Part shown: positions 4,901 through 60,500 of the stretch, piece by piece
Layout of the letters: each line of letters begins with the position of its first letter
Position numbering within the stretch: the first letter of the stretch is position 1
Assembly: GCA_947247005.1 (NCBI GenBank)
Contig: OX365946.1
Coordinates: 49,750,734 to 49,814,733, forward strand
Direction: 5' to 3'
DNA from: Spisula solida
Lineage: Eukaryota > Mollusca > Bivalvia > Venerida > Mactridae
Length of the DNA stretch: 64,000 bases
Made by a program: the position numbers and the translations under genes
Notes under the pieces: generated by a model
Seen by the model: only the letters and a program-made list of their open reading frames with translations
What the model was told of the DNA's origin: nothing
Database searches by the model: none

Positions 4901-5104
4901 ACTAATCAATTAAATTTATAATTAATCACTATAAAGCTTAATTAGATATAGGGACATCATAAGAGCCAGTATTCGGAGACTATACAATTCAACCTTTATG
5001 ACATATTGTGAGCAAAAACACCCGAATCTTCCGGTCATTATATGACTTATTGGGAGACTATATAATTCAACATGTATGACTTAGGCAGACTTTCGGGACG
5101 GGAT

Positions 5105-10005: not shown

Positions 10006-10011
10006 AATAAA
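10006..10011 (+). promoter_or_regulatory. Poly(A) signal AATAAA, copy 1 gene
   Basis: Canonical hexamer 223 bp after the stop codon, conserved at the same place in copy 2. Confidence 0.6.
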
Positions 10012-18075: not shown

Positions 18076-18297
18076 ACAAACCAATTCCTTTGAACATTCA
18101 ACATGCGGAGTATGTTTGCAGGAAAACGTGCAGTTTATCATCTTAGTCAACAAGATATTTGTTGACCCTTCATGCAATACGTGCAGTATCGAATGTTATC
18201 TGCAGGTTTTATGCGGTATATAAGAACACTTTAATAATCAGTATTTGGTTACGTCTATCACACATCCTCGCGTAAACACTTGTACTACTCTTTATGC

Positions 18298-18303
18298 AAT
18301 AAA
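18298..18303 (+). promoter_or_regulatory. Poly(A) signal AATAAA, copy 2 gene
   Basis: Canonical hexamer 223 bp after the stop codon, matching copy 1. Confidence 0.6.
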
Positions 18304-33500: not shown

Positions 33501-36500
33501 TAATCAATGATTATAATGTTCATGTCCAAACCCCACACATGGTAAACTCAAGACTGCAACATTGTAAGCAAAACTCATTAGCACAAGACTAAAACTTACA
33601 ACCAGAAGGCTCAAACTCATGAGTGTAAGTCTCAATCTACTGCAGGGGTCATGGCATTTTATACAAAATGAGTCTATACAATCAATGCACGACAACTTGC
33701 TGCTACTTGAGAAACCAATCAACTATAAATGTACTGTAAACATATTGCAACTAAAAACTAATAATGTATACATACGTGAGTTAAACCAAACATTGCAGCA
33801 TAGTTGAAGACTTTAGCGAAATGTGGATTAACTTCCATAGCATCAGCGAATACCTACAAAGTAAAACAACATTATATTCACCTGTGGCATCAGATCAGAA
33901 CATTGGCATAATAGTATCAAAGAAGGGTTTTTGACACAAACATGTAAGTCACCCAGAAAGAGCCATAACTCACACAGAAATCATCCACTCTAAAATTCCT
34001 GACAATTCACATAACTAGGCTTGGCACCACCTGTTCATGTGAAATCCTACCAAGTACGGACAGACACTCAGCACAAACTCAATGTAAGAGACATAATAAA
34101 TGCCCCAGGTGAATCTAATTTGAAATGCATATGTAAAAGCCAGAGCTGAGACTTACATGGATATTTCTCAGCCCCCCCATGTACAAGTAAGCATTGCTCT
34201 AAGCACATTGTACTGTATGCAGCTTGAGTACACACCTGAATGGTAGCATCCAGTTCACCATTAACAGCGTAGAGATTGGCTACAGTCAACCATATATCAA
34301 CCTATACTGTATACAGTGTGTGTACAAACCTGAATGGTAGCATCCAGTTCACCATTAACAGCGTATAGATTGGCTACAGTCAACCATATATCAACTAGGG
34401 TCTGATTCTTCTGTAATAAATCCCTACATATAGTCAGCACATCTTCCAACCTATAACCAGAGATATGTATAACTGAATAATGTGACATGTATAGAATACT
34501 GTAATAAATCGCTACATATAGTCAGCACATCTTCCAACCTATAACCAGAGATATGTATAACTGAATAATGAGACATGTATAGAATACTGTAATAAATCTC
34601 TACATATAGTCAGCACATCTTCCAACCTATGACCAGAGATATGTATAACTGAATAATGAGACATGTATAGAATACTGTAATAAATCTCTACATATAGTCA
34701 GCACATCTTCCAACCTATAACCAGAGATATGTATAACTGAATAATGAGACATGTATAGAATACTGTAATAAATCTCTACATATAGTCAGCACATCTTCCA
34801 ACCTATGACCAGAGATATGTATAACTGAATAATGAGACATGTATAGAATACTGTAATAAATCTCTACATATAGTCAGCACATCTTCCAACCTATAACCAG
34901 AGATATGTATAACTGAATAATGAGACATGTATAGAATACTGTAATAAATCTCTACATATAGTCAGCACATCTTCCAACCTATGACCAGAGATATGTATAA
35001 CTGAATAATGAGACATGTATAGAATACTGTAATAAATCTCTACATATAGTCAGCACATCTTCCAACCTATAACCAGAGATATGTATAACTGAACAATATA
35101 ACATGTGACATGTATGGGATAGTTTATACTGAGTAATATTAATGAATGGAAAATTCAATGTACATTATAAATGTACATATTTAGACATAATACTAACAGA
35201 GCCCTTATTGTACTTTACTCACAACATATGAACCTAATGAAAAACTTAAATAACAAATAAGGCTGTCCAGAATAGAAAAGGAAAATCCAGATGTCCTTTT
35301 TGTGGGGGGACAAAATTAGCAGAACATTTTAGGCAGGATGCAGAATATACTGCTTTTCGAAAGGCAGAATGTTCTGCTATCTATCAAAGGCATACTATTA
35401 AGCAGAATATTCTGCTTTCTCCAGAAAATTCAGCTATCAATGAAAGGCAGAATATTCTGCTATCTCAAAAAGCTGATTATTTGCTAACGATATAAGGCAG
35501 AATGTTCTGCTTTCTCGAAAGGCAGAATGTTCTGCTTTATCGAAAGGCAGAATATTCTGCTAACTATAAAAGGCAGAATATTCTGCTTTCTCTGGAGGCA
35601 GATTGCTCTGCTAACTATAAAAGGCAGAATATTCTGCTTTCTCTGGAGGCAGAATGCTCTGCTTACTATGAAAGGCAGAATGTTCTGCTTTTCGAAAGGC
35701 AGAATGTTCTGCTATCTATCAAAGGCATACTATTAAGCAGAATATTTTGCTTTCTCCAGAAAATTCAGCTATCAATGAAAGGCAGAATATTCTGCTTTCT
35801 CAAAAAGCAGAATATTCTGCCTTTCGAGAAAAGGCAGAATGTTCTGCTTTCTCGAAAGGCAGAATATTCTGCTTTCTCTGGAGGCAGAATGCTCTGCTAA
35901 CTATAAAAGGCAGAATATTCTGCTTTCTCTGGAGGCAGAATGCTCTGCTAACTATGAAAGGCAGAATGTTCTGCTTTCTCGAAAGGCAGAATATTCTGCT
36001 AACTATAAACTTTAAAAGGCAGAATATTCTGCTTTCTCTGGAGGCAGAATCCTCTGCTTTTCGAAAGGCAGAATGTTCTGCTATCTATCAAATGCATAAT
36101 ATTAAGCAGAATATTCTGCTTTCTCCAGAAAATTCAGCTATCAATGAAAGGCAGAATATTCTGCTATCTCAAAAAGCTGATTATTTGCTAACTATAAAAG
36201 GCAGAATGTTCTGCTTTCTCGAAAGGCAGCATGTTCTGCTTTCTCGAAAGGCAGAATATTCTGCTAACTATAATAGGCAGAATATTCTGCTTTCTCTGGA
36301 GGCAGAATGCTCTGCTAACTATAAAAGGCAGAATATTCTGCTTTCTCTTGAGGCAGAATGCTCTGCTAACTATGAAAGGCAGAATGTTCTGCCTTTTCGA
36401 AAGGCAGAATGTTCTGCTTTTCGAAAGGCAGAATGTTCTGCTATCTATCAAAGGCATAATATTAAGCAGAATATTCTGCTATCTCAAAAAGGTGATTATT

Positions 36501-39500
36501 TGCTAACTATAAAAGGCAGAATGTTCTGCTTTCTCGAAAGGCAGAATGTTCTGCTTTCTCGAAAGGCAGAATATTCTGCTAACTATAATAGGCAGAATAT
36601 TCTGCTTTCTCTGGAGGCAGAATGCTCTGCTAACTATAAAAGGCAGAATATTCTGCTTTCTCTTGAGGCAGAATGCTCTGCTAACTATGAAAGGCAGAAT
36701 GTTCTGCCTTTTCGAAAGGCAGAATGTTCTGCTTTTCGAAAGGCAGAATGTTCTGCTATCTATCAAAGGCATAATATTAAGCAGAATATTCTGCTATCTC
36801 AAAAAGGTGATTATTTGCTAACTATAAAAGGCAGAATGTTCTGCTTTCTCGAAAGGCAGAATGTTCTGCTTTCTCGAAAGGCAGAATATTCTGCTAACTA
36901 TAAACTATAAAAGGCAGAATATTCTGCTTTCTCAAAGGCAGAATGTTCTGCTATCTATCAAAGGCGTAATATTAAGCAGAATATTCTGCTTTCTCCAGAA
37001 AATTCAGCTATCAATGAAAGGCAGAATATTCTGCTATCTCAAAAAGCTGAGTATTTGCTAAATGTAAAAGGCAGAATGTTCTGCTTTCTCCAGGGGAATA
37101 CTTTTCAGCTATCAATAAAAGGCGGGGTCATTAAGTGCAAAGCATATTATTTTTGGAAGGTAAGCGTGTAATATATGAAATTAAAGGTATCGACGAGTAA
37201 TGGTCGACAATCGTATTTAGAACCCAGCCCGGGGTCGGGCGGGGTCATTAAGTGCAAAAATATTATTTTTGGAAGGTAGGCGTGTCAAATATGAAATTAA
37301 AGGTATCGACGAGTAATTGTCAACAATCGTATTTAGAACCAAGCCAGGGGTCAGGCGGGTTCATTAAGTGCAAAAATATTATTTTAGGAAGGTAGGCGTG
37401 TCATATATGAAATGAAAGGTATCGACAAGTAATTGTCAAAAATTGCGTTAAGATCCCAGCCGGTGGGTCGGGCTGGAATCATAAAGTCCCAAAATAGATA
37501 ATTTTCAAAAGGTAGGCGTGTCATATATCAAACTAAAGGTATCGACGAGTAGTTGTCAAAAAATCGTATTTAGAACCTAGCCTGTGGGTCGGGCGGGGTC
37601 ATTATGTGCAGAAATAGATTATTTTTGGAAGGTATGCGTGTCATATATCAAATTAAAGGTATCAACGCGTAGTTGTCAATATCGTATTTAGAATCTAGCT
37701 CGGGGTGGTTGAGGCGTGTCATATATCAAATGAAAGGTTTCGAAGAGTAATTGTCAAAAATCACATTAAGATCCCAGTCCGGGAGTCGGGTGGGTCATTA
37801 AGTGACAAAATAGATTATTTTTGGAAGGTAGGCGTGTCATATATCAAATTAAAGGTATCGATGAGTAGTTGTCAAAAATCGTTTTTATAACCCAGCCCTG
37901 TGGTCGGGCGGAGGTCATTTAGTACCTTAATATATAATTTTTGGACGGTAGGCATGTCATAATTATATCAAATGAAAGGTATTGAAGAGTAATTGTCAAC
38001 AAATGCATTAATATCCCAGCGCAGTGGTTGTGCGGGGTCATTAAGTACCAAAATAGATAATTTTTGGAAGGTAGGCATGTCAAATATGAAATTAAAGGTA
38101 TCAACAAGTAGTTGTCAAAATTCATATTTAAAACCCAGCCCGGGAGTCGGGCAGGGTCAGTAAGTGCAAAAAAAGGTAATTTTTGGAAGGTAGGCATGTC
38201 ATATATCAATTTAAAGGTATCAACGAGTAGTTGTCAAAATCATATTTAGAATCCAGCTCGGGCGGTTGAGGTAATTAAGTGCAAATAGATTATGTTTTGA
38301 AAGGAAGGCATGTCATATATATATTAAATTATAGGTATCAAAGTGTAAATATTTTATGCAGCAGCAGCATATAAGTGTTTTTGCAGCACAAATAGTATAC
38401 AAGTATATCATGAATGTTTATTCCATATGCATCTAAATAAATTCAACCAGTCACTGAAAACTTGCGTATGTATATGAATTGCTCTTACTAGTATTTTAGT
38501 TTTATGATCATTGTAATTAAGCAAGTGAGCTTCCGTATGTCTTAGAAATATCTAACTCGTATTCTTAGAATAAGAATGATATCCAATACACATATAACCT
38601 TACATATTAGGACCTAGGATAATCTTACAGTAAAGACTTAATTTTATCGGACAAATAGTCAATTTAAGATTGATCTTGCAGTTTAGATGTACATTGTATA
38701 TTGAATACGGTCCCAGAACAGCACTGTTTTAAGAGTAGTTGGAAATCAACTAGCTCTCAGACTCAAGAATCTTAAAATAATGTAAATTCACGTACACTCA
38801 GTTTTCTGTTACAACAACAATATTAACAATTAATTCAGGAAAACATTTTGTACATACCTATAATAAGTTTGCTTTTCAAATTTCCCAATGAGCTTAATTA
38901 TGAAAGAAGTGACCACTTCTTATTACAGGTACATCTCACTATTTTGCGAAACCCAAACACAGTATTACACACTTAGTTGTGTGCTATCACATTAGAAATA
39001 GGAGTGTATGTGGTCAGTCTGCAAAGCTAGGGCTTATCAGTTTAAGCAAATAATCTGTATCGCTGTTTATATCCCATAAATCTTTTGGACCAGTGTTGTG
39101 GGAATAGTATTCTAACATTAATTTCGGGCTATTCTAGAAATAGTACTGACCACATGTTTCATACCTTTCACTCTTGAAGAAATGTATTAGACAGAATGGC
39201 ACAATTCTGACCAAAATATGTTCAATTCAACTGGAGAAAGGTGCTAGTAATTTGATAGGACTATTAAAGGCCAATCTAAAGGAACTGAGAGAACTCTCCA
39301 GGGTATTCCATGTCATTATAATTTCACAGCATTCATTACAGTGTATAGACTTTCCAGAGTCCTACCAAGAGATCCGATATTTCAATTTTCCCCAGAATTT
39401 TTAATCGAGGGATAATGATTAGCGTAAAATCAGAATGAAACGGCATGTCAGAGAGTTACAAATTACTTCTTTAGATTGGCTTTTAATAGCCCTATCAGAT

Positions 39501-42500
39501 TACTAGAACCCTTCCCCAGGTGAATTGAAATGGACATTTGGGTCAGATTTGTGTTTCTGGGTTTCTCTCTATGCATTTTGGTTTTACAGTGAAATTTTGA
39601 ATTTGAATGAAATGCACTAGGAAAGGAATTTAATTAGAAAGTTAAATAAAGTACCCGGTACCCTGTAAACATGCATCACACTTACAATTAAAAATATTTC
39701 TAGTTGGATAAAGTATTTCATGAAAAGCACATAAACTCTTTGAATGTAACAATTACAAGTAGCATAACCAAGGAAAGTTATGCTTTACAATGGACTGTGC
39801 TTATTTTGCACAGATAATTCATAATACTGCTTTGTAGTTAAACTTATAAAACTGTTTTCAGTAAAGTCACTTATACAATGTTACAGGAAGTTAAGGTATA
39901 CGGTTTGTGACACGATTTGGAGTATAATGAAACAGTTTTATCCCTGAACTTTCAACAACAGATAATGAACATGATATGCATGAGTTCCAGTCCATTGTTG
40001 CCATACTGTACATGATATAGATATTTCCGGGTTGACCGCTGTTGGCAATTGCCACCTGATCCCCCAGCCAGAGACCTTACGATATAAGTTATGTAGATAT
40101 TATAGAGTTCACTGTATCTGGAATATTGAATCTTGAATGTAATCCATATCTCCATGATACTTAATCAAATGGTCATATACTGCCAACACAGCTCAGCAAG
40201 ATCAAGGTCATTCACAATCACGGCTGGTAGAAAAAGCCTTCACTTGTTAGAGTTTTTAGGATTAGAAAATATTACACATTTCTTTGTGTGACTAGAATAA
40301 AATATGTATATTTTGAAAAAAGTGAATGCTAAATTTATTATTGCAATTAAGAAAGTTATTTAAAAGTGGTTTTTACACTGCAATATGATTGTTTTTACTA
40401 TAGATTTTCTAACATTTTGCGGGAACTTTCAATTTAAATATATGAGGTTTTAAATCAAATTATGTTTATGATTATAGCATAAATAGAGGTCTAATGCCGG
40501 CACCTACTCCATGTACACATGTACTTACTACTAACTTACAAATGTCAAACGTATAATGTACACTGATCTTAGGTAAACTGCCAATCGTTGAATGCAGAAT
40601 CAACGGCTCAGTGCGAAACAGTTGTAACTACATAATTATATGTAGTTAGTTGTTACTGCATAATAATATGTAGTTTCAACTGTTTGCACTGAGACCTTGA
40701 GATGTAAAATTGAGCCCACAAAGCTGCACCTATACCAACCAGCAGTAAAAAGAAGTCTTTAAAACCAGGCCCTGCTCTGAGTACTGATAATAATAAAAGT
40801 CTGATATAATTGTTGGTCTTAATATAAATAAATGTAGACAATGCAAACAAATCAGGTTAAATGATATGCATGCTTGTAATATTGTTCCAATCATAGAACT
40901 ATTTATATGCGGAAGACTATTTTCTGGCATATAGTCGTTGAATCGGTTGTAAGCTGAAAAGTGGTAATATCATTGTGTGGCGTATGCCACACAAAAACAA
41001 GTCAACTCATGTTCGTGATTAAGCTCTGTACCAATTGCAGAGAGAATTGATTACAAGTCAAGACTGAACTCTACACTTGAACATATTCCGGCTTACATTG
41101 AAGACAGGTCTTAGGTCGAGTGCTGCGCATTGGGCCTACTATGCAAGCAATTGAACGCAGGTCTAAGATTGAGGACTGAAATTCCCTAGCAAGCTTGGAA
41201 CGTAGGTCTTAGACTACAGCACTGCACTCTTGACATTCTCTAGCAAGTTTGGAATGTAGGTCTAAGACTGAGCACTGCACTCTGGACATTTTCTAGCAAG
41301 CTTGGAATTTAGGTCTAAGATTAGGTACTACACTTTGGACATTCTCTAGCAAGCTTTAAACGTAGGCCTAAAATTGAGCACTGCACTCTGGACCTTTTCT
41401 AGCAAACATTCAACATAAGTACTGTATGAGATTGAACACTACACTCTATCAAGCTTTTAACGCAAATCTAAGACTGAGCAGTGCACTCTGGACCTTTTCT
41501 AGCAAACTTTCAATGTAGGTCCAAGATTGAGCTCTGCACTCTGGACCTTTTCTAGCAAGCTTTTAATGTAGGTCTTAGATTGAGCACTGCATGTTGGACC
41601 TTTTCTAGCAAGCTTTCAAGGTAGGTATAAGATTGAGCACTGCACTCTAACAAGCTTTGAATGCAAATCTAAGACTGAGCACTGCACTCTGGACCTTTTC
41701 TAGCAAGCTTTCAATGTAGGTCTAAGATTGAGCAACCTCTAGCAAGTTTAAGGTTCAGCCCTGTACATTTGACCTCTAGTAAGGTTTGAACTTGATTGAG
41801 CAATGTAGGTCTATGGTAGAGCCCTGTATTCCTGCCCTACTTCAGCAAACATTTGATGCATGTCTCTGGTCAAGCACTGAACTCTTGACCTACAGCATGC
41901 AAGCATTGAACGTAGGTCTATTTGAACCTACAAATGCAAGCATAGAATGTAGGTCTAACTGAATCTTCTCTAGCAATTAGCATTCAAAGTAGGTCTAACT
42001 GGACCTACAACGTGCAAGCATAGAATGTAGGTCTTACTGGACCTGCAACAATGTCTTACTGGACCTGAAACATGCAAGCATGGAAAGTAGGTCTAACTGG
42101 ACCTACACCATGAAAGCATAGAGTTGTTACAGGTCAGTTTTGTGTTGGGTTCGAGCCTTAGGCCAACCCTTGGCCGACCATCCCGATATCCTTTGTAGGT
42201 GGTGGTAGTAATAGGGTACATTTTAGAACAGTAGTGACTGTAAGACCTTGTCATGTAGTATACACTGTCTTTATTTGAAAAGTTTATTAACACCATGCAT
42301 ATGTAACTGTTGTCGGGTCACTAAGTAATACTAATGAGGGAACTATCCCATTCTAAAGAATAGGGGGAGGGGACTATGTTTTATACAATAACAGAGATGC
42401 TGTTGATCAATAGTATAATAGTTGAAAACCAGTTTTTCACATCGTCTCGTTAGTCTAGTGATTAAGCACAATGATTTTGTTGAGATTTGTTCAATCTAGC

Positions 42501-45500
42501 CACTGGTTCGACACCCATTCAAGTTACATGCATTTTAAAGTTTTTTATCTTTTTTACAAGAACCTTATTTTGTATTTGTAACTAATATAATAATAAGATA
42601 CACATAGTAAGGTATGTAGATTTATTTGTGTGTTATCAAGTAACGAAGTTGTATCTTTTCAATTATTTCATTTTTATCTACAGTACAGTAATCATACAAT
42701 TATATTATATACCCACTTCAACATAAGAAATTTATCATTTGAAGTATCGATTCATTAAAGCAGTAGAACAATATAAGACTTAATAACATGGATACATGTA
42801 ATAAAAAAATTGTGGGGATCGAACCTACAACTTTTGAAACTTGTACAGTGTTCAATCTAGCTCACCACGACAGGGTGCCATTCGGGCCCATAGACTATGC
42901 AACAGGGGGCCATTGTGGAAAAATGGGGGCCCTTATAATAATATCAAAACATTCCATAAATTATATAAGTATACCAGTCTTCCCCTTGAAAAGCCCTCAT
43001 ACATTCATCTGCCTAGCTATAAACCCCAATGATACCAACTAAATTAAAGTTAAAATCACAAAAAAATATTATGAAATAAAATTCTCCCCTTGTTACATCT
43101 GCCACAGTCTGGAAATATCGTTGAGTCTACGAGGATTGATGCATCAATAAACCATCCTTTTAATCTAAAAATTACCGTGGCTGTGATTTGTAAAAGTGGA
43201 ACATCGGTTCTAAAACGAACGTTTCCAGGCAAATTACTGACATCATTCGACATACTTGATCTGGCAGATGTTCTTTTTGCAATATAATTTTTATTTCTTC
43301 CTCATTTTTTTATATTTTAACCCATATCGGCGTAAAATTACTCGAAATGTTTTCATCATGCTTCAATGACTGGAGGCTGACATCATTACCATACCAACGG
43401 GCACCTGTTTGAAGAGTTACTGATTGAAGCTAAAGGACAACAAGTAACGAAAAGATAATGTAGCAAAAATACTTCAATTTTATAGAGTGCGCCGATGTGG
43501 CCCAAGGAAACATCTGAAGTGCGCCATTTCAATTTTTTAGGGGTCAATGGCGCAATGGCGCGGCCTAGATTGAACACTGCAAAGTTGTAGGAAGTGTGTG
43601 TTTATCTACTACCCTACATCGCCTTTGATGTATGGAATGCGCTTTTAACATAATTTGATATCGAACCCAGACAGACAAGTTTATGTTTATAACGGTTCTC
43701 GTTTTACTTTGAATGCACTGTATAAGTTGTGAGTAATGGTATTTGTCTTGTATGATTTGTTCTTGTTTTAATATGTATTTTAGCTTCATCATTGGAGAAA
43801 TAAAACAATATGTGCATTAAACATTTGTCCCGATGATTTGATTGATATATATATATATATATGTTTATTAAAGTCTCATCTCTGTACACATAAACTATAC
43901 AATTTACAAAACACATCACAGTACAAAGTCATTCTAAAAGAATTATAAGAGACTATCAAATCACAATTTCATTAAAAACTCACAATATTTACAATATAAA
44001 TCTATGTTACCATTGTTATTCTAATAATAAAAACTGCCCTAAAAATAAATATTTAATAAAACACTGAAAATCAAAATCACACTTATGTGAATCGAACACA
44101 CAATGTGACATATTACTTAGGACTACAATAGGTGTATTGCCTTCATGAGCTGCAGTACACAGACTCCTGGGGTCTTGTCCACGCGCCTCGAAATATTTTC
44201 ATTATATCACTTTTATATCCAGACCCATTCACTCATCACACAAACGTTTGTTGCATGCATTTGAAATAAAAATTAAATCTGATTAAGGTGTCTAATATTT
44301 TATTGAAAGGTAACCTTGATGATGAATTAAATATAATGTTTGATGACTTTAGGTAATTGCAAAGTCTTTGATCTATCTGTACAATGTATATCAAACCTGT
44401 TATACATGTATTTATGAAGAACACATTTACAGCTATGATTTTGGAAGTTCCTTACACTTGCTCCGCTAGTTTTTGAGATATTCTTATTTTCCTAAAAACT
44501 AATAATACAAGGGTCAGTCAAGAAAAACTGAGAGTTGCTAAATAATTCTTAGAGAAGTAAGTGTTCGTATGTTTCCTATACGTTATCGTGAAATATGGTA
44601 TCTCACTGATTATATGGCGAAAACCACTCTAGTCTATGACAATTTGATTCTTGTTGCTAGTCAACCAAAGAAGACAACTATAGGACATGCGTTCACGCTG
44701 TTAGTAAAAAAAAAAGTGTGCGTTGCTATGGAAACATAAAGATATATCTGATATTTTCAAACACATTATTTATTTGGTAATACATTAATCTATCAAATAA
44801 AATTAATTCTAGTTGTTTTACTCCACCAATATAGAAAATATTCTTGACGAAAATGTAAATTGTCATTTTATTTGATGGTATTAAAACCACAATTTACCCC
44901 ACCCAAAAGAACGGATCATTTTTTAAGAAAGCGAAGTTATACAATTTATTTCTGTTACGGTTACTGGACTCCTTGAGATGTATTCACAATCTTATTGAAA
45001 AGAAATGGGGAAATCAGTTATCAGTTTTAGAACACATGCCGGGAATATTGATAAAATGTGGGTAAAATTGTTGCACTAGGCAACAAAATAACACAGCATT
45101 AGTGACCATTCTTAAATAATGGCTCATTATTATTTGATATATGCTATTCTACAATATACTCATGTTAGTTGTAATGAATCCCGGTTTATAAGGTTGAACT
45201 AAACCATTGAATTTACAACAGATTTGATTTTCATATCGCTTGTGCTAACGCATACCCCTAAGTGATGTTCTATGGTTGCTTGGCAACTACATTTATAAGC
45301 CTATATATTGTAAGCTTATTTAGGCCTATTAGCTTATGTACCCGTGTCTGCTATGATGCATATGTAGTATGTATGCCTATGTAAGTATCTTTAGTGTGAT
45401 AGGTGTATATGTGTACTATTGTGTAGGTATAAAGTACCAGTAAATAAAAACACAGTTCAACTTCAAACTAGATTTATGGTTGGTAAAATCAAAAGGTATA

Positions 45501-48500
45501 TCTATAGATCTAATATATATTTTAACATCATATCATACAACAAACACACTCTAATCAACCAACAAGTCAAACTGACGTTGACAAAGATTTCTCCCACCAG
45601 TCAAACTGACGTTGACTCACTGGATGTATAAAGTAGATCTAGAAATCTAGACAAAATATTATGAGTAAATCGCCAGTAGTAGGCCTATTATAAATAGAGT
45701 ATATGACTATCGTATGCTATAGTGCGGCCAAGATATGATGGCACAATAACATTTACACATGCTAATTAGCCGATGGGTTCATTTTCAACAGAAAGGGGTG
45801 CTTATTTACAGTCAGGGTCAATAAACGCTGGTCTCGAATTACGTTTTCGCAATATGAGCAAATATAAGAGTCGCTTTTACATGTGCCTCGCTAGCTCAGT
45901 CGGTAAAGCGTTGGAAATACAACAATATTATGGAAGGAGGTTACTGGTTCAAGTCTCACTCTTGTGCATTTTTGGTAATGAATTGTATTCTTCAGTTCTA
46001 GTAAACATTTTTCTGAGTATATACCGTTACACGTAGATTATCTTGTTACATTTTTTTCATTCGTATACTTTCTCTATTCTGTATAACATTATATAATATT
46101 TTATTATATTTATCTAGAACAATTGATTGAAAATTAATATTCTGTATGTATACGTGTGTATATAAATTATATGAATTAACATTGTTCATCAGCAGTGTTT
46201 GTGACAGAATCATTTTAGAAATCTGCAAATTTATCATCACTATCACCATCCGCCTCGTCATAATCAATGTCATTATCATCAAAAGAATCCAGTGAAATTT
46301 TGTTTCTTCTTGATTTTCTTACACCGTTGTGCAATTTCGTGCCTATATGCGTGCAACCGTCCTTTTTGATACCCCTGTCATCGGGGTAGTTTGTTTCCTT
46401 CGACAGGACAACAGAATCACTGGCAGTTCTATTTATGCCTCTCGTGTTCAGAAGTCTAATACATTCGACACAATGCATCGTCCTTGCTGCGTTAAAACGA
46501 TACATTTAGCCATCATTCAATTTAATGATGTGCAGCGTACACAGTTTATCTTGTTGTAAATAATACACCCACAAATACAGTTTTGTGAAAAGTGTGCCGA
46601 AAGGAAATTCGCGAAACAAAATAAAAATAAAATAAGATTCGGATGGGATTCGAACCCAGACCGTCTGCGTTGAGATTAGAAACGTTACCACTAGGCTATA
46701 TAAGCACAACTGAAGTCTGCGCTCGTAAATATAGGCAATCGCGCCTTGATATCAGTTTGAAATTTGCCCGCTTCAAAACTTTCAAATGTCGTAATGTCCA
46801 ATCGCGACAAAGAGTGGAATTCAACAACCAATGAAATCAGTCCGCTAAACTTAGAACTGTCTGTGTTCGTTCACAAGATTAAACGTAGATCCGCAGGTCA
46901 ATCCGCTAAAGTACGATTATTCATTACTTGTTAAAGTTATGGAAAAATGAATCACAGTTCTATAATTAGTATATCATGCGATGATTAAAACACTTTGGGT
47001 TATAATAATGACTAAGGTTAGATTTTCATTGTCTGTCAAGCACTGGCACTTGTGCTAATAGATCCACCAAAGATTTCACTGAGCAAGTAAACAATGAAGT
47101 CTTTCATCATTACGTTTGTGCATAACAAAGCATAAAAAAATTGCGAGTGGCTGGAATACCTTGTTTAAAGGTAATTACAATCCAATAATTGTTCTTGATT
47201 ACAATTTCCCGAGAATGCGAGTAATTCAAATTGTCATACGTTTTCGCGACCCGAGTCGACTCGTCACATTTTGTCTGTAACTAGCACTATTTGAGTTAAT
47301 CTGTAGTGATATATGATTCAGAGTTAAGGATCTAAGTATCCCTAAATGGGATTAGACGAGTCAGTCTGATAAATTACTTTAAGATATGTAAACAATGTCA
47401 TTCTACTTATCACAATATGATGACGGAACTCATCAGATTGTCCGCAGGGGGTAATATTTGACGATGAATAATAGAAAGTACAACTGCAAACATATTTTGA
47501 AGGCTTAAATTACCAACTCTCAGTTTTTGACTGACCCTCGTATTTACCGAAATAGGTTGACATTTAATACAATGTACATGTAACATGAAACTTGGCATGC
47601 ACGAAATTTCGTATTTACGGAATCATACGGTAACGTTTATTTTAGAATGTGCATGTTATTTGTATTTTAAATGCTATTTTAAAATGAGTAATGTTTCATT
47701 GTTGACTAGTGAAAAAAAGTTTAACGACACAAATATTTGAACAACATACTGTTTTCATACATGCAACAAGTAGAGTGGCTCGACCCTTTTACCCATGTAT
47801 TTAAAATGTATTTATAGAAATTTTTGTATGAAATTGTTTGTGTATTTTGTTTGGGCAATACAATATGTTTAAACTAAGTAGAGTAACAATTATAGAAGAT
47901 TTTTTCCAAATTTCATGGCAGTTGCTCGGTTAGACTGTTAACACTCTAGAAGTCACACTTTTCACTTAATCATTATGAAACTTGGTCAAAATGTTTGTCT
48001 CTATGAAATCTAGACCACGGTTGAACTGTGTCATCTGGGGTCAAAAACTAGGTCACCAGATTACATTGAAGAAAAACCTTGTTTATTATCTAGAGCTCAC
48101 AATTCTTACCTCATCTTTATAAAACCTGGCCACAAATCTACATTAAATATTAAGGTCATGTCATAACAAATACTGATTCTGCCTAAACTGCTAATCATCA
48201 GGTGAGCGCTTTAGGGCCAATGGCCTTCTTGTTTTATTTAACACTTTAGTGATTCTGAAATGTTGAAAACCAGGAGAGGTAACAATATCAATCAACGTTT
48301 TGAATACCTTGTATCCAGTTTTGCGATAAGATAATTAGTTTATGGAAATTAGGAGAAAATTAGTACAGCTTAAGATATTGACTCTTCTGCAACTGCTAGT
48401 CTATATTCTTATGAACTAAATGCAAAAGGACTTTTCTCTAAAGTGGTCGGGATGCTTGTTAAACAAATATCTATACTTTCGAGAGTTGATGTTTAAAACA

Positions 48501-51500
48501 TTTGGAATAAATGACACATGATTTCAGCTATAGCTTTTTCTGCAAGTTTATAATAATGTAATATAGAATAACTATACAGTAAATTCGCGATTTTAAGACA
48601 TGAGAACATGCTGACACATCCATTTTAAGTTCTGTCGTAATATTTCATCCCGGTAGTCAGACGCTTTCAATGCCTCTTATTTACACAGATGTTAATTGAA
48701 TTATTCTTATCGGAAAGGTTACTAAGTGCTTGCGAGTAGTATGATGAAATAACTGAATTGGTTACGCGTGTTTATAAAGGAATGTCAGCCAAATCCGAGT
48801 ATTCTAGTAAGGTAGAGGACAGTTCTACACTTCTTCTTGGAACTGTGTATTGAGGGTCCAGGAGAACACTTTGAGAGTAAAGCGTGGGCGATTGAAACGT
48901 GAGAGGTGCGTCGACGATTGATGACATCATGACGTCCGAACCATGCGCCGTGTGGCTATCAATCATCTTAAAAATCTTAAAATATTTATTGATACAAGTA
49001 TTATAATATATTGAACTTGTTAGTGTTTCTTAGTACCGAAGTGAATGTAGTTGATGATGACAAAACAAACAGAACATTCACTGTCGTGATCAGGGCCCCA
49101 TGGTAGCATGTTCTAAGGAGGGGTGAATGAGGGTTGGAAGAAAATGTAGATGTATAGTGACCCTATAAAATTTTGTGTTCTATCAGTTGTTTTGTAACTT
49201 ATTATTGATTATAATTTAACAACTGACCAGCAGTAGTACTGTGAAACCTTCTTCAACTCAATGTTAATATCTGCTGTGAGCGAAGTGTAGTTTAACTTGT
49301 ATACAGTCCAGAGAACAGCCTAGATTTAGCTTGAAAATCCCTGTTTCTTCTCTCAGCTGGAATTGATATCTCAATTACCTGTTAATAGGGGTTCTAATTG
49401 CCACAAATGATTTGGTAACAGTTCATTTGGCCAGTGCTGGGTCAAACCACTGGCATACTATAAAATCTGGGCTGGGTCTGTGGGCTGGGCCCGTGGGCTG
49501 GGCTCGTGGGCTGGGCATATGGGTTGGGCTCTTTAGACATGACCTCAATTGTTTACATCTTTCAGCAGATGAACTTCTACAAAAAGTTCAAATGAACAAT
49601 TATAAGTTCAGACTAGGATAGCAGTTGGATAACCCCATAATTACAATTCCCAGTGAGATTCCCTGCAACTTAATAACTACATAGAAATGTGATTTATTAT
49701 AAAATATGATTATAAATAACAATGTAGTTCACCGATTCCAAAATTTTGCAGTTTCGTTTATATTTTGGAACTTTTACCCCACTTTTCTCAAAATGCTGAA
49801 GGGTGACACAATGGCACCCGTCAGAACTTCCATTCGAAAGGTCTTGTCTACTGAAATCAGCAAAGAAAAAAACTTTATACTCCAATGCAAGGTATCTTGG
49901 GTTTGGGGCCGGACTACATGGTTTTAAATGTCGTCTTTTTCGTTGGGTAAACACTGTACTGTAGCAGCCGACATTGAAGTCCCACATCAATATAACATCC
50001 AGCCTGGATCAGCGGTTGCAATATTTCCCTGTTTTAAACAGTAATCATCCTTAATTCGTAGTAGAACATGTGGAAGAGTCTAAAAAAGATCATGCTTAAA
50101 CTGCGATCCTATTTTCGGGTTATATATGAGGTCTGTTAAATTACATTCTATGCTGTTTTAACATTCGTTAATCATTTGTTTAATCATCGAATTAGGTTAT
50201 TCAAATGAATAAGGAATTTGTTTATGTAAATAATCAAAATGCAGGGCTCTACAATAGAACAGCGTCCGGGACAACTCTTAATCGAGCTCGGACAACTGAT
50301 TATGCGCAAGAATTTAGTCCCGTCTACTCTTAATTTCAATTGACAGCAAAATCGCACATTTTTTTTTACTGACCAAAAAGTTCGTATAACCAACCTCTAC
50401 ATTCGAGATTTGATTCTGTATACCGAATTTTATGATCCAAGCATATATTTGCCTTCCTGACATCGAAATAAACTATGTACGAGTCAGTTAATCCATGTCA
50501 ATTAGCAGTAATCAAGCGTCACAGGAGGTCCAATACATGTAAAAACAAATTGCAGACTTCGGCTAAGCTCCGCCTCTCTAATTTGATTGCATCAAACTCG
50601 GTCCTGAAACATGCAACCGCGCACGTGGACTGTATTGGCTAGTAATTTTGGGATTAAAATCAGTCGCTCATCATGTAAACAGGCACGGAATAAAATGTAT
50701 TGAATACCTTTTGCATAATTGTATAGGTAATTTCATAATAAAATATATTGCTAAGTTTGCAACCTCGTAATGCAGACAATCTTTTTTTAGCGGCGACTTT
50801 GATGTGACAGATGCGGCGTAAGTATTCGATATATGCGTGTATTATATTCAAGTATTAAAATTAATACAATATGATTTATTCAGCAGACTTTTCAGATAAA
50901 AATTTTGCCATTTAAAAGCTATTTTAAACAAATCATAATTATGCTTCATTCTAGTATTCAACTGCCAGATACAATTTTCCACCATACAAACATTCAACCT
51001 GTACCTGTACATTGTATACCTAAAATTAACTAGCAAGAGTGATCATGAATATCTTATGGTGATATTGTGATGAAGCTTGTCTGTAGAGACCACTACTCTA
51101 GTGGCTGCATAGTATATTGTTCAAATCTGATAAGATGGCCATTAATCTCATACAGAATCAAAACTTGAGATTGCTGACCTGGGTTAACCTTTCAGATACC
51201 AGCTACAGCTATAAAATGCTGGCATTTACTCTAGGGGTTGTATAAGAAGGAACAGACTAAGACTGGCACCAGTGCTAAGTTGATATTTTTTGCTTAAACC
51301 AAAATTTACCATACTCATATTCAACATAAATTTACGTGTATCTAACAAAGCTATAGATCAACCATATTTTAGAGCCGTGACTAATTTATGCAGCACAGTT
51401 GATTTACCCTAAAAGGGTATGTATACATAAGCAATACCAACATAAGTTACATAAGTCATTCATGCAAGTAACTGAATACATGGCGCAATGTTTACGGCTA

Positions 51501-54500
51501 TGTCTTATGAGACTTAGTTTTCTATGATATTTTATATTTGCCATGGCTCTTATTTAATACCAAGTTATACTGGCAGTTGGCAAGGAGTTCATCTAAAAAA
51601 TAGCCTCTAAGTGTATTAAACTTGTATTGACAGTTGGACAAAAACACTGGCATAAAATATTGCAATAAACGATCTTCAAGCACTCGCTATAAAATATTCA
51701 AATAAACAATCTGACTCAGAGAGGGACAAAACTGACGGGTTGTCAACGAACACACCAAGTAAAGTCGAAATTCTTTGACGCGAGGTAAGTATTACATGTA
51801 GAATGAGAAATGAGAAAAATGAAATAAAATTGCTTTTAAACAATGTCTTCATATTCTTGATGATAAAGAAACAAAACAAATATAGTTGAGAAAAAATAGT
51901 GCTATTATGAGGGCTTGAACTCGCTTGTTTTTAGTCTGAAAATCAAGCTCTCTACTGGTACCGATGGAGCCAGCTATACTATATCTACTACATTTATATC
52001 AATGCATGTTAAAAACATCACAAACAGGTATATTCATACACCATGACTAAAACGTGTAGTCTCGGATTCTCCCGTCAAAGCTCAAAATTCGTGGATGATC
52101 TATAGTGAAGTAGCCAAAATTGCAATTGCAAAATGAAAGTATGTTGCCATGCTAGAACAGATCTTGACTTTACACAGATACATTTAATTTAGGGGGTCAG
52201 CTTGCAGAATCAATACTATCTGTGTAATAGAGCAGCAATCCATGGGGTTTCAATTTGATAAACACCTATGATAATTGCTTTTACAAAGCACTTGGTTTCT
52301 CATAAATTACTATTCGGAAAAAGTGCGTAATTTAACAACAATATTATTTAATTCTATAAATGGGATTTATGATATATCTGATAATGGAGTATAGGTTTTA
52401 TTTGGTAAATTCGTTGTCTGATATAGTATAAACAGCGATAAAGAGTGGGGGTGATGGAAACAACTTCAGGATATTACACCAAGTAAGTACATTTACTTTG
52501 ACCTTAAAATCTACAACACGAGTTATCATACCTTAGTATATATTAAGGATGTTTAGGACCTTTCTCCGACGTCATCGGTAAAAAATCGACAATAGGCCGA
52601 ATCTAATGAAAATCTCCAGAAATATGCTTTAACATACTCTTTGATTATGTCGTTTTTAATTTTTCAAAATATTGCTTCATTTCCTAGCAACGTGACGCTA
52701 TGCATAGGGCGGAAAATTAATGTTTTAATGTCATAATTCGGTTAGAATAAGGTCTATTTAAATTTTCAAAGCTCTATTTCTTAGCCCTTGATCCGTTGAA
52801 TACGTGTATGTTAAATTTAAAGCGATTGTTACGGACAATTTTTCACCCGAAAAAGGTTTTATATCGAAAGTTGATATAATTTATTGCATTTTTGCAACAC
52901 CTTACTCATTTCAATGTGCAATTTGGTCAACAAGAAGTTATTCAATCAACTAATGTAACATACCGTGGTGATGCGGTAATTCTATAGAATAAGCCCAACC
53001 AATAAATAATTATAAATGTTCTTGCACTTCTTGTCACAACAAGAAACATGCATACCAATTTTGGACAATGAACACAGCATCAAGATAAATACACAGTGAT
53101 ACAAAAGAGAACATCGACTGTGTTATGTTTTTAAATTATCTAAACATCTACTCAAGATATTCGATCGAACATTAAATGCATTGTACAGAATTATGAGCTC
53201 AAGTCTTCCAAACTAACTGAAGTCTTCCAAACTAATTATTACATCCCTTTAATAAAATTATAACTAAAATATGTATACATCGTTTTCTTACAGTCATATA
53301 TAGTTATAATGTATATAATAATAGCGTTTGGTATAAAAGTGAATCTTTGATGTATAAACTTCTGAAAAGTTAGTCCCGCACTTGTCTAGAAATATTGCCA
53401 CTAACCAGGCTTATATATCTGGTTTCACTGTTACGAAACCAAGTTAAATCCTGTTGGAAGTTAAAATAAAGCTGATGCGGCCGGTGGATGAACAGCCAGC
53501 AAATTGAAAGAAAGTGTTATATATATATATACAATTTACAAAAGTATGATGTCTTACATGTGTATTATCGCCTCCTCGATAGCCTAGTGGTTGAGCGATA
53601 GCCTAGTGGTTGAGCGATAGCCTAGTGGTTGAGCGATAACCTAGTGGTTGAGCTTACGCTTTGAGTGCGGGAGGTCTTGGGTTCGATCCCTGACCGTGTC
53701 ATACCAAAGACGAAATAAAAATGGTACTAGAAATTTCCTTGCTAGACGCTCAGCTTAAAGGGAAATTGGCTCCTCTTCTCTCATACCCTCGTGGCGATGG
53801 ATAACATCAGGAATGAGGTGTCGAGAGTGATTAATATAAGTTTGAAAAACTTGTTTCACAATCGACCTTAAATAAATTAGTATAAACTATTAACTGTATT
53901 AGATAATAATATAAGTTAATGTAAACACTTTTGAGCCACTGTTAGATCGGCTAAGTGGCAGCCCGTTTGACTTCACACATTTTGTTTTACTGGTTGACAA
54001 CGCCTTTTTCTCGATTTTTTGACTAATTTTTCAAAAAAAATCCAATTTGTTTAATTTGATACTCACGGTATAGGTTGACATTTTGTGCCTTAGTTGGAGT
54101 AGGCCGACACATCAAACATGACGTTACAATAATGTACCAGTAATGATACTACTTCCCCAATCCAGGGGTAAGACAGGTGATGGGGGGAAACTGTCCCGTG
54201 CTTTTACGTTTTCAGTGTTTTAGGTGGGGTACACATTTGATTCGCGACAAAATAGCGGGGAAATGCAGCTCTGACTATACCCGCGAGATATAGGACAAGG
54301 GGAATTTGCGGGGTTTTACCAGCTGTATGACCCTCGGGGTTTGATGAAGCAAAAGTAAAAATCCCCGTCGTATTATTATAGGTATGTACAAAATGTTTTC
54401 CTGAGTTAATTGTTAATATCGTTGTTGTAACAGAAAACTGAGCGTATGTGAATTGACATTATTTTAAGATTCTTGAGTCTGAGAGCTAGTTGATTTCCAA

Positions 54501-57500
54501 CTACTCTTAAAACAGTGCTGTTCTTTGACCGTATTCAATATACAATGTACATCTAAACTGCAAGATCAATCTTAAATTGACTATTTTTCCGATAAAATTA
54601 AGTCTTTACTGTAAGATTATCCTAGGTCCTAATATGTAAGGTTATATGTGTATTGGATATCATTCTTATTCTCAGAATACGAGTTAGATATTTCTAAAAC
54701 ATAAGGAAGCTGACTAGCTTACTTACAATGATCATAAAACTAAAATACTAGTAAAGAGCAATTCAAATACACACGCAAGTTTTCAGCGACTGGTTGAATT
54801 TATTTAGATGCATATGGAATACAAAATTGACACAGTAAAAAATCCTTCCTTTACAGTCATCTATACATTGAGGTTGTTCATCTGTGAAAGTTTGAAGAAA
54901 TTCTACCCAGTAGTTTATGAGGAGTTCAACACACAAGATTTGTGTTACGTACGGACGGACGGACAGCACCAATGCTATATGCCCCCACTTATAAATAAGT
55001 GTGGGGGCACAAAAACATTCATGATATACTTGTATACTATTTGTAAAGTATTCTGCCTTTCATAGTTAGCAGAGCATTCTGCCTCCAGAGAAAGCAGAAT
55101 ATTCTGCCTGTTATAGTTAGCAGAATATTCTGCCTTTCGAGAAAGCAGAACATTCTGCCTTTCGAGAAAGCAGAACATTCTGCCTTTTATCGTTAGCAAA
55201 TAATCAGCTTTTTGAGATAGCAAAATATTCTGCCTTTCATTGATAGCTAAATTCTCTGGAGAAAGCAGAATATTCTGCTTAATATTATGCCTTTGATAGA
55301 TAGCAGAACATTCTGCCTTTCGAAAAGCAGAACATTCTGCCTTTCATAGTTAGCAGAGCATTCTGCCTCCAGAGAAAGCAGAATATTCTGCCTTTTATAG
55401 TTAGTAGAGCATTCTGCCTCCAGAGAAAGCGGAATATTCTGCCTTTTAAAGTTTATAGTTAGCAGAATATTCTTCCTTTCGAGAAAGCAGAACATTCTGC
55501 GATTCGAGAAAGCAGAACATTCTGCCTTTTATAGTAAGCAAATAATCAGCTTTTTAAGATAGCAGGATATTCTGCCTTTCATTGATAGCTGAATTTTCTG
55601 GAGAAAGCAAAATATTCTGCTTCATATTATGCATTTGATAGATAGCAGAACATTCTGCCTTTTATAGTTAGCAGAATATTCTGCCTTTCGAGAAAGCAGA
55701 ATATTCTGCCTTTAATAGTTAGCAGAATATTCTGCATTTCGAAAAGCAGAACGTCCTGCCTTTCGAGAAAGCAGAACATTCTGCCTTTTATAGTTAGCAA
55801 ATAATCAGCTGTTTGAGATAGCAGAATATTCTGCCTTTCATTGATAGCTGAATTTTCTGGAGAAAGCAGAATATTCTGCTTGATATTATGCCTTTGATAG
55901 ATAGCAGAACATTCTGCCTTTCGAAAAGCAGAACATTCTGCCTTTTGAAAAGCAGAACATTCTGCCTTTCATAGGTAGCAGAGCATTCTGTCTCCACAGA
56001 AAGCAGAATATTCTGCCTATTATAGTAAGCAGAATATTCTGCCTTTCGAGAAAGCAGAACATTCTGCCTTTCATAGTTAGCAGAGCATTCTGCCTCCAGA
56101 GAAAGCAGAACATTCGGCCTTTCATAGTTAGCAGAGCATTCTGCCTCCAGAGAAAGCAGAATAGTCTGCCTTTCGAGAAAGCAGAACGTTCTGCCTTTCG
56201 AGAAAGCAGAACATTCTGCCTTTTATAGTTAGCAAATAATCAGCTTTTTAGGATAGCAGAATATTCTGCCTTTCATTGATAGCTGAATTTTCTGGAGAAA
56301 GCAGAATATTCTGCTTAATATTATGCCTTTGATAGATAGCAGAACATTCTGCCTTTCGAAAAGCAGAACATTCTGCCTTTTGAAAAGCAGAACATTCTGC
56401 CTTTCATAGGTAGCAGAGCATTCTGCCTCCAGAGAAAGCAGAATATTCTGCCTATTATAGTTAGCAGAATATTCTGCCTTTCGAGAAAGCAGAACATTCT
56501 GCCTTTCGAGAAAGCAGAACAATCTGCCTTTCGAGAAAGCAGAACATTCTGCCTATTATCGTTAGCAAATAATCAGCTTTTTGAGATAGCAGAATATTCT
56601 GCCTATTATAGTTAGCAGAATATTCTGCCTTTCGAGAAAGCAGAACATTCTGCCTTTCGAGAAAGCAGAACATTCTGCCTTTCGAGAAAGCAGAACATTC
56701 TGCCTATTATCGTTAGCAAATAATCAGCTTTTTGAGATAGCAGAATATTCTGCCTTTCATTGATAGCTGAATTTTCTGGAGAAAGCAGAACATTCTGCTT
56801 AATATTATGCATTTGATAGATAGCAGAACAATTCTGCCTCCAGAGAAAGCAGAATATTCTGCCTTTTAAAGTTTATAGTTAGCAGAATATTCTGCCTTTC
56901 GAGAAAGCAGAACATTCTGCCTTTCGAGAAAGCAGAACATTCTGCCTTTTATAGTTAGCAAATAATCAGCTTTTTGAGATAGCAGAATATTCTGCCTTTC
57001 ATTGATAGCTGAATTTTCTGGAGAAAGCAAAATATTCTGCTTAATTTTATGCCTTTGATAGATAGCAGAACATTCTGCCTTTCGAAAAGCAGAACATTCT
57101 GCCTTTTATTGTTAGCAGAATAGTCTGCCTTTCGAGAAAGCAGAACATTCTGCCTTTCATGGTAAGCAGAGCATTCTGCCTCCAGAGAAAGCAGAATATT
57201 CTGCCTTTTAAAGTAAGCAGAGCATTCTGCCTCCAGAGAAAGCAGAATATTCTGCCTTTTATAGTTAGCAGAATATTCTACCTTTTATAGTTAGCAGAAT
57301 ATTCTGCCTTTCGATAAAGCAGAACGTTCTGCCTTTCGAGAAAGCAGAACATTCTGCCTTTTATAGTTAGCAAATAATCAGCTTTTTGAGATAGCAGAAT
57401 ATTCTGCCTTTCATTGATAGCTGAATGTTCTGGAGAAAGCAGAATATTCTGCTTAATATTATGCCTTTGATAGATAGCAGAACATTCTGCCTTTCGAAAA

Positions 57501-60500
57501 GCAGTATATTCTGCATCCTGCCTAAAATGTTCTGCTAATTTTGTCCCCCCACAAAAAGGACATCTGGATTTTCCTTTTCTTTTCTGGACAGCCTTAAATA
57601 TTGAAAGTCTTACAATGTTTGGTTGTCTCAGAGTCTTTATTTAGCATACCTTGTGCACATCATGGTATCCTGGTTTTTAGATGTTAAATTTCTCCCTTTC
57701 GCGTAAGTTAAAATGTTAGGGCCATTATGCATATACTTTGGAGTGAAAACAACTGAGCAAAACTGATCATTAAATCTAATAAATTCAACTGCAAATATTT
57801 CAGCCTTAGCACAGTCATCCACAACAAATAAAACAGGGATAAAAGCAGAGTAATCCACATGATTAAACCAATGTAGTTTGAATGTAGTAATGGGAGTTAA
57901 CTTACTAATGTCTCTCATTATACAGTGTATAATACTAAAGTTATCAACTAGTACAAATTTTGACAATGATGAACACGTTACTATTTCGTCGGAGTGATAC
58001 ATACTTGTTCTGACATTGTAACAGCTGTATCATATTCTTGTACAACATCAGACCATGTTCTAACGCTAGTGGATTCTTCCCCTCCACGCTGGATATACAA
58101 ACACTGATGGCTTCTTTCAGCAGTAATACATGTTGTTCTGCTGTACAGTCTGTAGTTGATGGTTTCTGCCAGGGTAACACTAGACTCTTCTATAAGACAT
58201 AATGAAATCACACTGTTTAGAATATAACCTACCTTTTCAACCAATGAAAACGCCAATCTGCACTGGTTAAATGCTACATTCAATAATTAAAAGTTTACTT
58301 TTAACAGGCTTAAAATTCTATCGGCCAATCAAAATGCTGGATATTACAATCAGTATGATTTGCAAATTCCATGGTATTAGAGACTTCACTGATTTAAGTG
58401 CATCTGTCTCAGGAATGTCTGTATATACAGTGTTGACAAGCTGGGGAAATATATTGGTGGATAGCCCCAGAAAGTAAACAAAATTTTGCATTGATAATAA
58501 ATCTTCTGAAAGAATGCAAATGACTAAGTTTTGGGCTTATACTTCATACGGAAATTTTGTAGATAATGCAGAACAAAATACACTTAGGTAATACAGATCA
58601 TTATAGGGAATTTCATGATGTGGTTCTAATTTTGAGTAAGTATTTAGTTAGGTAGTGAAGTATGTTTAACAATTAAAATAAACAAATACCAGTACCTTAT
58701 TTCCAATCTTTCCCGATGATACACAGTCCCATAATGCTTCTGGTAGTTGTTGCCATGACAACAGATGAATATATGACAACCATAGAACACATTTATCCTC
58801 TACTGTTAGATACGATTGACACGCTAACTTACCCTCACTCTTCACAAAGTAACCCTGAAATACACATACAGTATACATGTTAGAACGGTTCTCCTCACTT
58901 CTCCCTGTATCTAAAAACTTCTCCCTATTTGCTCTGGAGGGAGAGGTCACTTCTCCCTTAAATTTGGATCTGTGCCGATCCCTGAGAACCTATATAAATG
59001 TTAGAAGGAGACACCAGACAACGAACAATCCAAATACAGTCAACTCTTGTTATCTCGAATTTCACGGGACTGTGGAAATAACTTCGATATAACAAACATT
59101 TGAGATACAATTTTCTGCATCAAAGTTGCAAGTTTGCAATTTTCTGTCTTTTTACGGGTCGCTTCCATATTGCTACTTCGTAAAAACGACATATTCGTGA
59201 AAAATGCTTAATTTGATATTTATGTATATGTATTACTCTTTAATCATTATTTTTACAAACAATTGTTCGAGATGACATGTTAATTGATGTTTGGACACAA
59301 CTCGAATCTTCATGACAAAAAGTCATGTTTGTGCAAATTGTCGCAAACAAATAATTGCTTAACAATGGTAGGCGCAAAAATTACAGGTAAATGGAAGATT
59401 TGAATCTGGCGAGGCGTGAAAAACATTTGACGCTAGTCGGATACAATCAGAATTCGACCAGACTTCAAGTTGAACAATACAATTAACGTGCCAATTAGTA
59501 AATCGGGACCAAATAAATAATTTGTGATAATGAAATATTCGAGCCGAATTCGAGCCTAAACTTCGAGATTTCATATAGACAAAGAAGGAGACAAAACTTT
59601 GAAATAACGGAAAATTTGATATAAGCGAGTTCGAGATAACGAGAGTTTACTGAGGCTGATAGAATACAATCATGGATACTGCATATTAACTGAAACAATG
59701 AGAACTGTGTAACAGGTTAAAATTTACAAAATTGAATAAGTGTTGATTTATAATTGAATTGAGCTTTAAGTTGATTAACTTTGTGACCAGTTAAAATACC
59801 CTCTTAATAAACAGTACATCATAAACACTGTACACAATGACACTGTCTTTCTTCAATAAACTTGCACGACCCTCTCTAGGGTATAATCGCAAAGTTGCCT
59901 GATAGGTCCACCCATAGATGAAGAGACAGTTTTTGTGATACAAGGAATCCGGATGGGATACCCTAGCTCTTTCCAAATTCCTTGGTTCTTTGAAGTGCAG
60001 AAGTCTACAGTACTGATTCACCCGAGAGTACTGGGTTACTGACCAGTTGATCTCTAAATGGGTGGGGAAACACTGGTAACTATTTCTGAAATTTCCATTG
60101 CCCTGACTGCATGAGATTAGTAGTTAAGAGTGTTAATCACTCGGCCACCACATGAAGAAACATCGCACTGTCAAATCACATATTTTCGTGGGTATTTAAT
60201 TTCTAGGATTTTGATAAAAATGCAATTTTTGTGGTGTCGTAAATTTGTGGATTACAGAACATGAAAGAGTAAACCTATGTCTGAATAAGAGAGGTTGATT
60301 AATCATGGGGATTAGATTTCACGATCTAGTTCATCCGCAAAATCCACAGCGAAGATAAATAACAGTAACTGATTACCTGTAGAATATTTTTGGCATAGCC
60401 TGGATGTCCAGTGATGATTGATAGATGTATTTTATACAACATGACCTCTAAAAGATGATGAGATATGGTCGAGTGTGGTGAATCTACTGTCTGTGTGCTA

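Follow-up and report, generated by a model that had tools for sequence, protein, structure and literature searches.

A giant, recently mobile non-coding DNA transposon family in Spisula solida and its candidate 60-kb helper encoding a DUF7869 protein

Foldback elements have long inverted arms that consist largely of short tandem repeats, and their non-coding copies outnumber the coding ones. The target duplications of the foldback elements FB and Galileo are longer than 4 bp, and the Galileo transposase is P-like. Non-autonomous DNA transposons are in general expected to be short, as long ones usually jump poorly. In this study, we describe an element of 22,337 bp at positions 35259–57595 of a 64,000-nucleotide stretch of the genome of the bivalve Spisula solida (contig OX365946.1, positions 49,750,734 to 49,814,733), which is referred to here as the window. 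It shares with foldback elements the long inverted arms of tandem repeats. When set against the foldback-type comparators FB4 and Galileo of Drosophila, the sea-urchin TU elements and Tetris (PMC4079207), the S. solida elements differ in their size (19–60 kb as opposed to a few kb), in their candidate helper gene, which encodes a DUF7869 protein, and in their 4-bp duplication. The first-pass annotation had termed the window element foldback-like, which fits its anatomy and is used here as a descriptive term. We show here that the element is a real cut-and-paste DNA transposon that has been mobile in this genome, and we think it probable that it is a giant non-autonomous passenger of autonomous 60-kb elements, in which DUF7869 would be an unnamed DDE-type transposase. 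As a kind, a DNA transposon is known; it is the unclassified candidate enzyme and the size that are unusual.

The 4-bp target duplication AAAT directly abuts both ends of the window element, and the inverted ends, which start AAGGCTGTCCAGAA, have their sole mismatch within the first 115 bp at position 15. The termini have the form AAGG..CCTT and the ends bear AAGGCTGTCC. By self-alignment, the left arm (35259–38866, 3.6 kb) is inverted, with gaps, relative to the right arm (54373–57595, 3.2 kb); the outer parts (35258–37090 against 57596–55506) have a gapped identity of 79% and the inner parts (38388–38866 against 55044–54373) are 96–100% identical. All of this is in agreement with the first-pass annotation, which had reported about one mismatch in 115 bp, AAAT on both sides and arms that stay inverted for 3.2–3.6 kb. 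Each arm is made up of an 81-bp outer end, a palindrome array and an inner inverted segment, to which an array of about 117-bp units is added in the left arm only. The 14-bp palindrome GCAGAATATTCTGC is present, with up to two mismatches, in 57 copies in the left and 76 copies in the right arm at a median spacing of 26 bp, and no copy was found in the interior of the window element or in 20 shuffles of each arm. The parts of the element, in window positions, are as follows.

35255–35258, no strand: left target site duplication AAAT, in the flanking sequence
35259–35339, plus strand: left outer terminal segment, starting AAGGCTGTCCAGAA, which recurs in the 60-kb elements apart from positions 15 and 74, and in one of their four ends also apart from position 59
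35340–37120, plus strand: left palindrome array (GCAGAATATTCTGC and variants), with the 57 copies given above
37121–38348, plus strand: tandem array with a unit of about 117 bp, left arm only
38388–38866, plus strand: inner left inverted arm
38867–54372, plus strand: interior of about 15.5 kb without recognized coding sequence or RNA family, colinear in seven other copies
41186–41734, plus strand: tandem repeats within the interior, differing among copies
42846–43580, no strand: private 735-bp insertion with inverted ends CAGTGTTCAATC, absent from seven of seven compared copies
54373–55044, minus strand: inner right inverted arm
55049–57514, minus strand: right palindrome array, with the 76 copies given above
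57515–57595, minus strand: right outer terminal segment
57596–57599, no strand: right target site duplication AAAT, in the flanking sequence

The 735-bp insertion is private to the window copy and is a younger insertion nested within it. By eye it is hAT-like, and its flanks repeat eight of nine bases.

The first-pass annotation had proposed a search for further inverted pairs of the terminus, and the genome that contains the window (931,988,947 bases in 36 contigs) was searched with the first 38 bases of the element, allowing up to three mismatches. This probe matched 57 termini, and the reversed probe, which served as control, matched none. All 25 forward termini are paired with a reverse terminus 19–60 kb downstream, while seven reverse termini are unpaired. 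Twenty-three of the pairs are of the window type, here called the 22-kb type (19,218–32,802 bp, median 23,058 bp), and the other two are the larger relatives described below. Eight copies including that of the window were compared over their full length and found to be colinear and mostly 98–99% identical outside repeat-rich stretches, which lie near window positions 41.1–41.9 and 53.6–53.85 kb. The remaining 15 copies were typed by 20 samples of 300 bp, 17 of which match the 22-kb type; the mismatches are two of four samples in the C18 copy and one of three in the C14c copy. These two copies are longer than all others (32.8 and 29.0 kb) and match in their other samples, so that they carry extra DNA. 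Furthermore, a 501-bp interior probe gave 24 long matches among the 40 that were scored out of 1,559 candidates. These cover 22 of the 23 paired copies, the exception being C15:41391189, and the two further long matches (C15:14148564 and C4:26566532) each lie upstream of an unpaired terminus; the other 16 scored matches are partial, mostly to a dispersed repeat. Three unpaired termini (C14:6596618, C5:32376086 and C20:12455163) stand outside this assignment of types.

Exact 4-bp duplications are present at the ends in 20 of the 25 pairs (7/8, 1/2 and 12/15 across three sets), and are A/T-rich and varied (AAAT, ATGT, ATAG, TAGT, ATCT, ATAT, TTAT, TTAG, GTAT, GATT, ATGA, ATAC and ATTA); the pairs without one are C13 (AGTG/AGTA), C17, C1b, C5b and C11b. 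At the sensitivity used, the 200-bp flanks of the 25 pairs, masked for low complexity, are unrelated, with matches of 15–18 bp only, apart from a 10-bp sequence, AGTCAGTTAT, on the right side of three copies. In addition, the C18 copy sits inside an array of a 31-bp satellite, and its flanks, when rejoined minus one ATTA, equal the neighbouring array units in 76 of 76 bases. This constitutes a paralogous empty site. Spread by segmental duplication or recombination rather than by transposition might be considered for elements of this size, the more so as five pairs lack an exact duplication and the unpaired termini C19:19455807 and C19:19701309 have 200-bp flanks that are 99% identical, which indicates a segmental duplication after insertion at that place at least. 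However, duplications that begin exactly at the terminus, together with flanks that otherwise share so little and a precise empty site, contradict this for most copies, and we regard it as a very improbable account of the family. Two of the elements without a duplication, C17:19626432-19686580 and C11:11231927-11254655, both have the arrangement ACAG, element, AGTCAGTTAT, with no wider likeness of their flanks, and the copy at C6:22995841 has TAGTCAGTTAT on its right together with a proper TAGT duplication.

The interiors of the eight compared copies, repeat-rich stretches excluded, differ by 0.79–1.21% (mean pairwise 0.99%), and their variant sites comprise 427 singletons and 26 shared sites. 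Such a star-like pattern of mostly singleton variants is as expected from a recent burst out of few sources, and agrees with the young age proposed in the first-pass annotation. These private mutations also bear on the idea that the assembly collapsed or mis-joined repeats and thereby produced the arms and copies artificially. Long arrays that are nearly palindromic pose difficulties for assembly, and their lengths do vary between copies; however, the 25 pairs are distributed over many contigs with consistent ends and with flanks and duplications of their own, and the window copy has, besides its singleton sites, its private nested insertion, so that an artefact is hardly credible.

Within the interior of the window element, no Pfam family was matched above cut-off by the open reading frames (ORFs) of at least 33 amino acids in six frames, and no RNA family was matched in Rfam. 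The longest stop-to-stop ORF outside the arms has 103 amino acids. Within the limits of these scans, the window element is non-autonomous; this, with the numbers of same-type copies and of duplications, upholds the first-pass description of a giant non-autonomous element of an undescribed family without a recognizable transposase. One might instead suppose that the 22-kb type drives its own movement through a functional non-coding RNA or an unrecognized multi-exon gene that it encodes, since the interior is so well kept among copies. Their similarity is, however, accounted for by the star-like recency, and in view of the empty scans and short frames we consider such a hidden function quite unlikely.

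The two remaining pairs, located at different sites, are 60,149 bp long on C17 and 58,698 bp long on C5, and a 4-bp duplication is present at the C5 copy and absent from the C17 copy. Their first 98 bp are those of the 22-kb-type copy C15a except for position 74, and at the left end of C5 also position 59, and diverge from it from position 99 onwards. They also carry the same palindrome arrays, with 49–71 palindromes per arm. Positions 1–11 of the ends are identical in the window and 60-kb types (AAGGCTGTCCA). The Repbase rule for a superfamily, as given in the consulted part of PMC4455052, asks for the same duplication length and for end positions 1–11 alike with at most one mismatch, and by this rule the two types belong together. 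Beyond the ends and arms, the window and C17 elements have in common stretches of only 159 and 328 bp. In the fetched stretches of the C5 element (about 18 of 58.7 kb), C5 and C17 are colinear, with main blocks 89–98% identical and array pieces down to 80%.

The C17 element contains a gene with seven exons, aligned to oyster OTU-DUF7869 fusion proteins, and these are as follows.

L032:2732-3232: OTU exon of the C17 OTU-DUF7869 gene
L033:1905-2543, 2910-3032, 4912-5043, 6342-6512, 7289-7405 and 9145-9780: six further exons of the same gene

In C17 these exons are open; the comparison in C5, which was made for the six non-OTU exons, covers five of them, all open. The last DUF7869 exon is among those present in C5, and was found full-length only in the C17 and C5 60-kb elements, where it is about 100% identical; four other matches, on C10 and C4, are partial and 69–89% identical. 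A second gene is located on the opposite strand of the 60-kb elements, and in its exon L030:6630-7223 the two copies, C17 and C5, have 99% identity. With the joined query for this gene a single homologue was retrieved, P0095 of Ruditapes (E=6.1e-21), from which its tail is judged to be coiled-coil-like. A ParB-like nature of the second gene was considered by eye from its GGNHTRAALQ stretch and found no support in Pfam, NCBIfam or the PDB. Furthermore, L031:2538-5197 of the C17 element encodes a reverse transcriptase of the long interspersed nuclear element (LINE) type (RVT_1, zf-RVT). The first-pass annotation had suggested looking for copies with a transposase gene, and a candidate, the DDE-like gene, is present in both of these larger relatives, whose ends are the same.

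Two AlphaFold2 models of DUF7869 homologues, with predicted local distance difference test (pLDDT) values of 85.4 and 86.1, have the RNase H order. In Foldseek, the one match under E=0.001 is the IstA transposase, and the 50 VIA rows listed for each model are integrases and transposases (Mos1, SETMAR, IstA, Sleeping Beauty). Residues D223, D226, D347 and D349 are conserved in 41 of 41 homologues, and D307 in 40, with one gap. DUF7869 is therefore predicted to adopt an RNase H fold with conserved acidic residues, with D223, D307 and D347 or D349 as the candidate triad, and a catalytic role for it is what we infer from these models. At the sequence level, the 41 proteins gave no match to the Pfam transposase families at E<=0.01; they matched six Pfam families in all, none of them KDZ in these sequence-to-profile searches, including one weak match to a resolvase helix-turn-helix (HTH_7, 0.007) and two to RFX DNA-binding domains. 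A sequence search against the PDB was also tried; its best row was a Nipped-B-like protein at the profile tail and no transposase was among the results. The listed homologues of DUF7869 come from bivalves, echinoderms, a hemichordate, lancelets, a nemertean, cnidarians, a sponge and a liverwort. DUF7869 is not mentioned in any paper of the library searched, and a description of this element was not found in the titles and starts of abstracts inspected there, a literature to which most subscription journals and bioRxiv do not belong.

All 25 pairs fall into two types, of which only the 60-kb type has a DDE-like gene, and this suggests that the 22-kb elements are moved by the 60-kb family. The first-pass annotation had postulated an enzyme encoded elsewhere; a candidate for it has now been found, and that it moves the 22-kb elements is our inference. 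According to the model that we favour, the product of the 60-kb family would act on the 22-kb elements in trans. The DUF7869 part of the OTU-DUF7869 protein, as a DDE-type transposase with an RNase H fold, would cut at AAGG...CCTT and join the element to A/T-rich targets with a 4-bp stagger. The cis-acting parts would be the outer ends and, within the arms, the palindrome arrays, the palindromes being putative binding sites of DUF7869 or of the second protein.

The most serious alternative is that both types are moved as passengers by a third autonomous family, itself unseen, and that DUF7869 is cargo or a nested element caught in the 60-kb elements. There are only two 60-kb copies, and that of C17 lacks a 4-bp duplication; an OTU exon, a second gene and a LINE all lie in the interior; and DUF7869 matches occur elsewhere in the genome (86 in all at E<=0.001, many of which are weak or fragments, against zero in 14 control genomes). 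In addition, part of the OTU-DUF7869 gene in C17 lies between inverted repeats, in two pairs that are both weak. However, one of these (76–90%) stops before the DUF7869 exons and the other (54 bp, 83%) before the last exon, and blastn found no inverted pair that encloses all exons of the gene, though ends under about 20 bp would escape it. Moreover, all pairs with these ends fit the two types without a third class, and the RNase H fold is predicted for DUF7869 itself. Diverged copies of the second-gene exon (69–70%) are also present on C11 at 41378628 and 41432655, at 0.9–1.2 kb from weak, stop-bearing DUF7869 matches at 41380210 (E=7.7e-5) and 41433833 (E=1.7e-5), so that the pair of genes recurs outside the two young 60-kb elements. 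Taken together, we consider the cargo explanation unlikely and retain the 60-kb elements as the probable helper. A second family of DUF7869 matches (C14:2900066, C10:25049734, C4:9039556, C4:14980487 and C4:15709710), alike at 96.7–100% over 276 bp, has recently spread and may represent a further mobile element family. An open frame of 1,042 amino acids that is repeated in the genome also gave weak DUF7869 matches (33 bits), in at least 11 places (for example C8:39758973, C12:22711907 and C18:25256521), which is perhaps another RNase H-fold mobile element.

Among described DNA transposons, piggyBac, Kolobok and Sola3 target TTAA, and elements of the CMCT group (CACTA/EnSpm-Mirage-Chapaev-Transib) have subterminal repeats, as do those of S. 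solida. TTAA is not found among the 20 exact duplications described here. According to the consulted part of PMC12730594, the CMCT group has duplications of 2–5 bp, a range that includes the 4 bp seen here, and mostly 5'-CA..TG-3' ends, whereas the ends here are 5'-AAGG..CCTT-3'. The stretch from the second D to the last acidic residue holds C(2)C and H(3-4)H motifs in the CMCT group, and C(2)C was found between D307 and D349 in none of the 41 aligned DUF7869 homologues, assuming that these residues correspond. The KDZ elements (Zisupton, Dileera, Kyakuja) resemble those of S. solida in being DNA transposons that combine inverted ends with companion genes, but the Zisupton target duplication of 8 bp, given in that part of PMC12730594, contrasts with the 4 bp found here. 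Teratorn, Polinton/Maverick elements and Helitrons are likewise giant, and an OTU domain has been reported in Helentrons (consulted part of PMC6431247). No viral, polymerase B, capsid, herpesvirus or Rep/helicase family was matched in the window interior or in the scanned C17 ORFs (L029 and L030 in part; L031, L032, L033 and L035 as chosen ORFs or left out), and in contrast to the giant eukaryotic transposons covered there, the elements described here have 4-bp duplications with inverted ends and are mostly non-coding. Large non-autonomous derivatives of long terminal repeat (LTR) retrotransposons offer a further likeness, namely non-coding DNA between mobile ends that is moved in trans; in the same part of PMC6431247 the DNA between the LTRs is said rarely to exceed 10 kb, whereas the present elements are DNA transposons with the 23-kb median and 23 paired copies given above. 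On balance, we lean towards the view that very large DNA transposons of this kind form a superfamily that has no name as yet, with DUF7869 as its transposase. The way in which DUF7869 recognizes ends would permit 20–60 kb of carried DNA: each end has 1.6–2.5 kb of palindrome array, to which the transposase or the second, coiled-coil protein may bind in register, at a spacing of about 25 bp, and this would hold far-apart ends together in one complex. If true, such a complex would account for the persistence of giant non-coding copies that did not shrink to miniature elements.

With regard to the surroundings of the element, the first-pass annotation had placed it in an intron of ZFC3H1 with intact, in-phase exons on both sides. 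While its account of the element's anatomy held, neither the gene name nor the phase of the exons was confirmed: five flanking ORFs had no Pfam match above cut-off, and three ORFs, when joined, gave no match in the PDB and no homologue in one padded search. The identity of the host gene as ZFC3H1 is thus neither supported nor excluded. Outside the element, window positions 9063–10139 and 17345–18430 form a duplication that is 94% identical, with similar ORFs of 213 and 187 amino acids, and a tandem array of an 88-bp unit (34411–35097; 7.8 copies, 98% matches) stops about 160 bp to the left of the insertion.

The presence in one genome of a recent burst of non-coding 22-kb copies and of a candidate 60-kb helper means that the upper size limit for cut-and-paste transposition can be put to the test. 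If our proposal is true, it would provide a function for DUF7869, a widespread domain of unknown function, and these elements would represent a natural vehicle for carrying tens of kilobases in animals.

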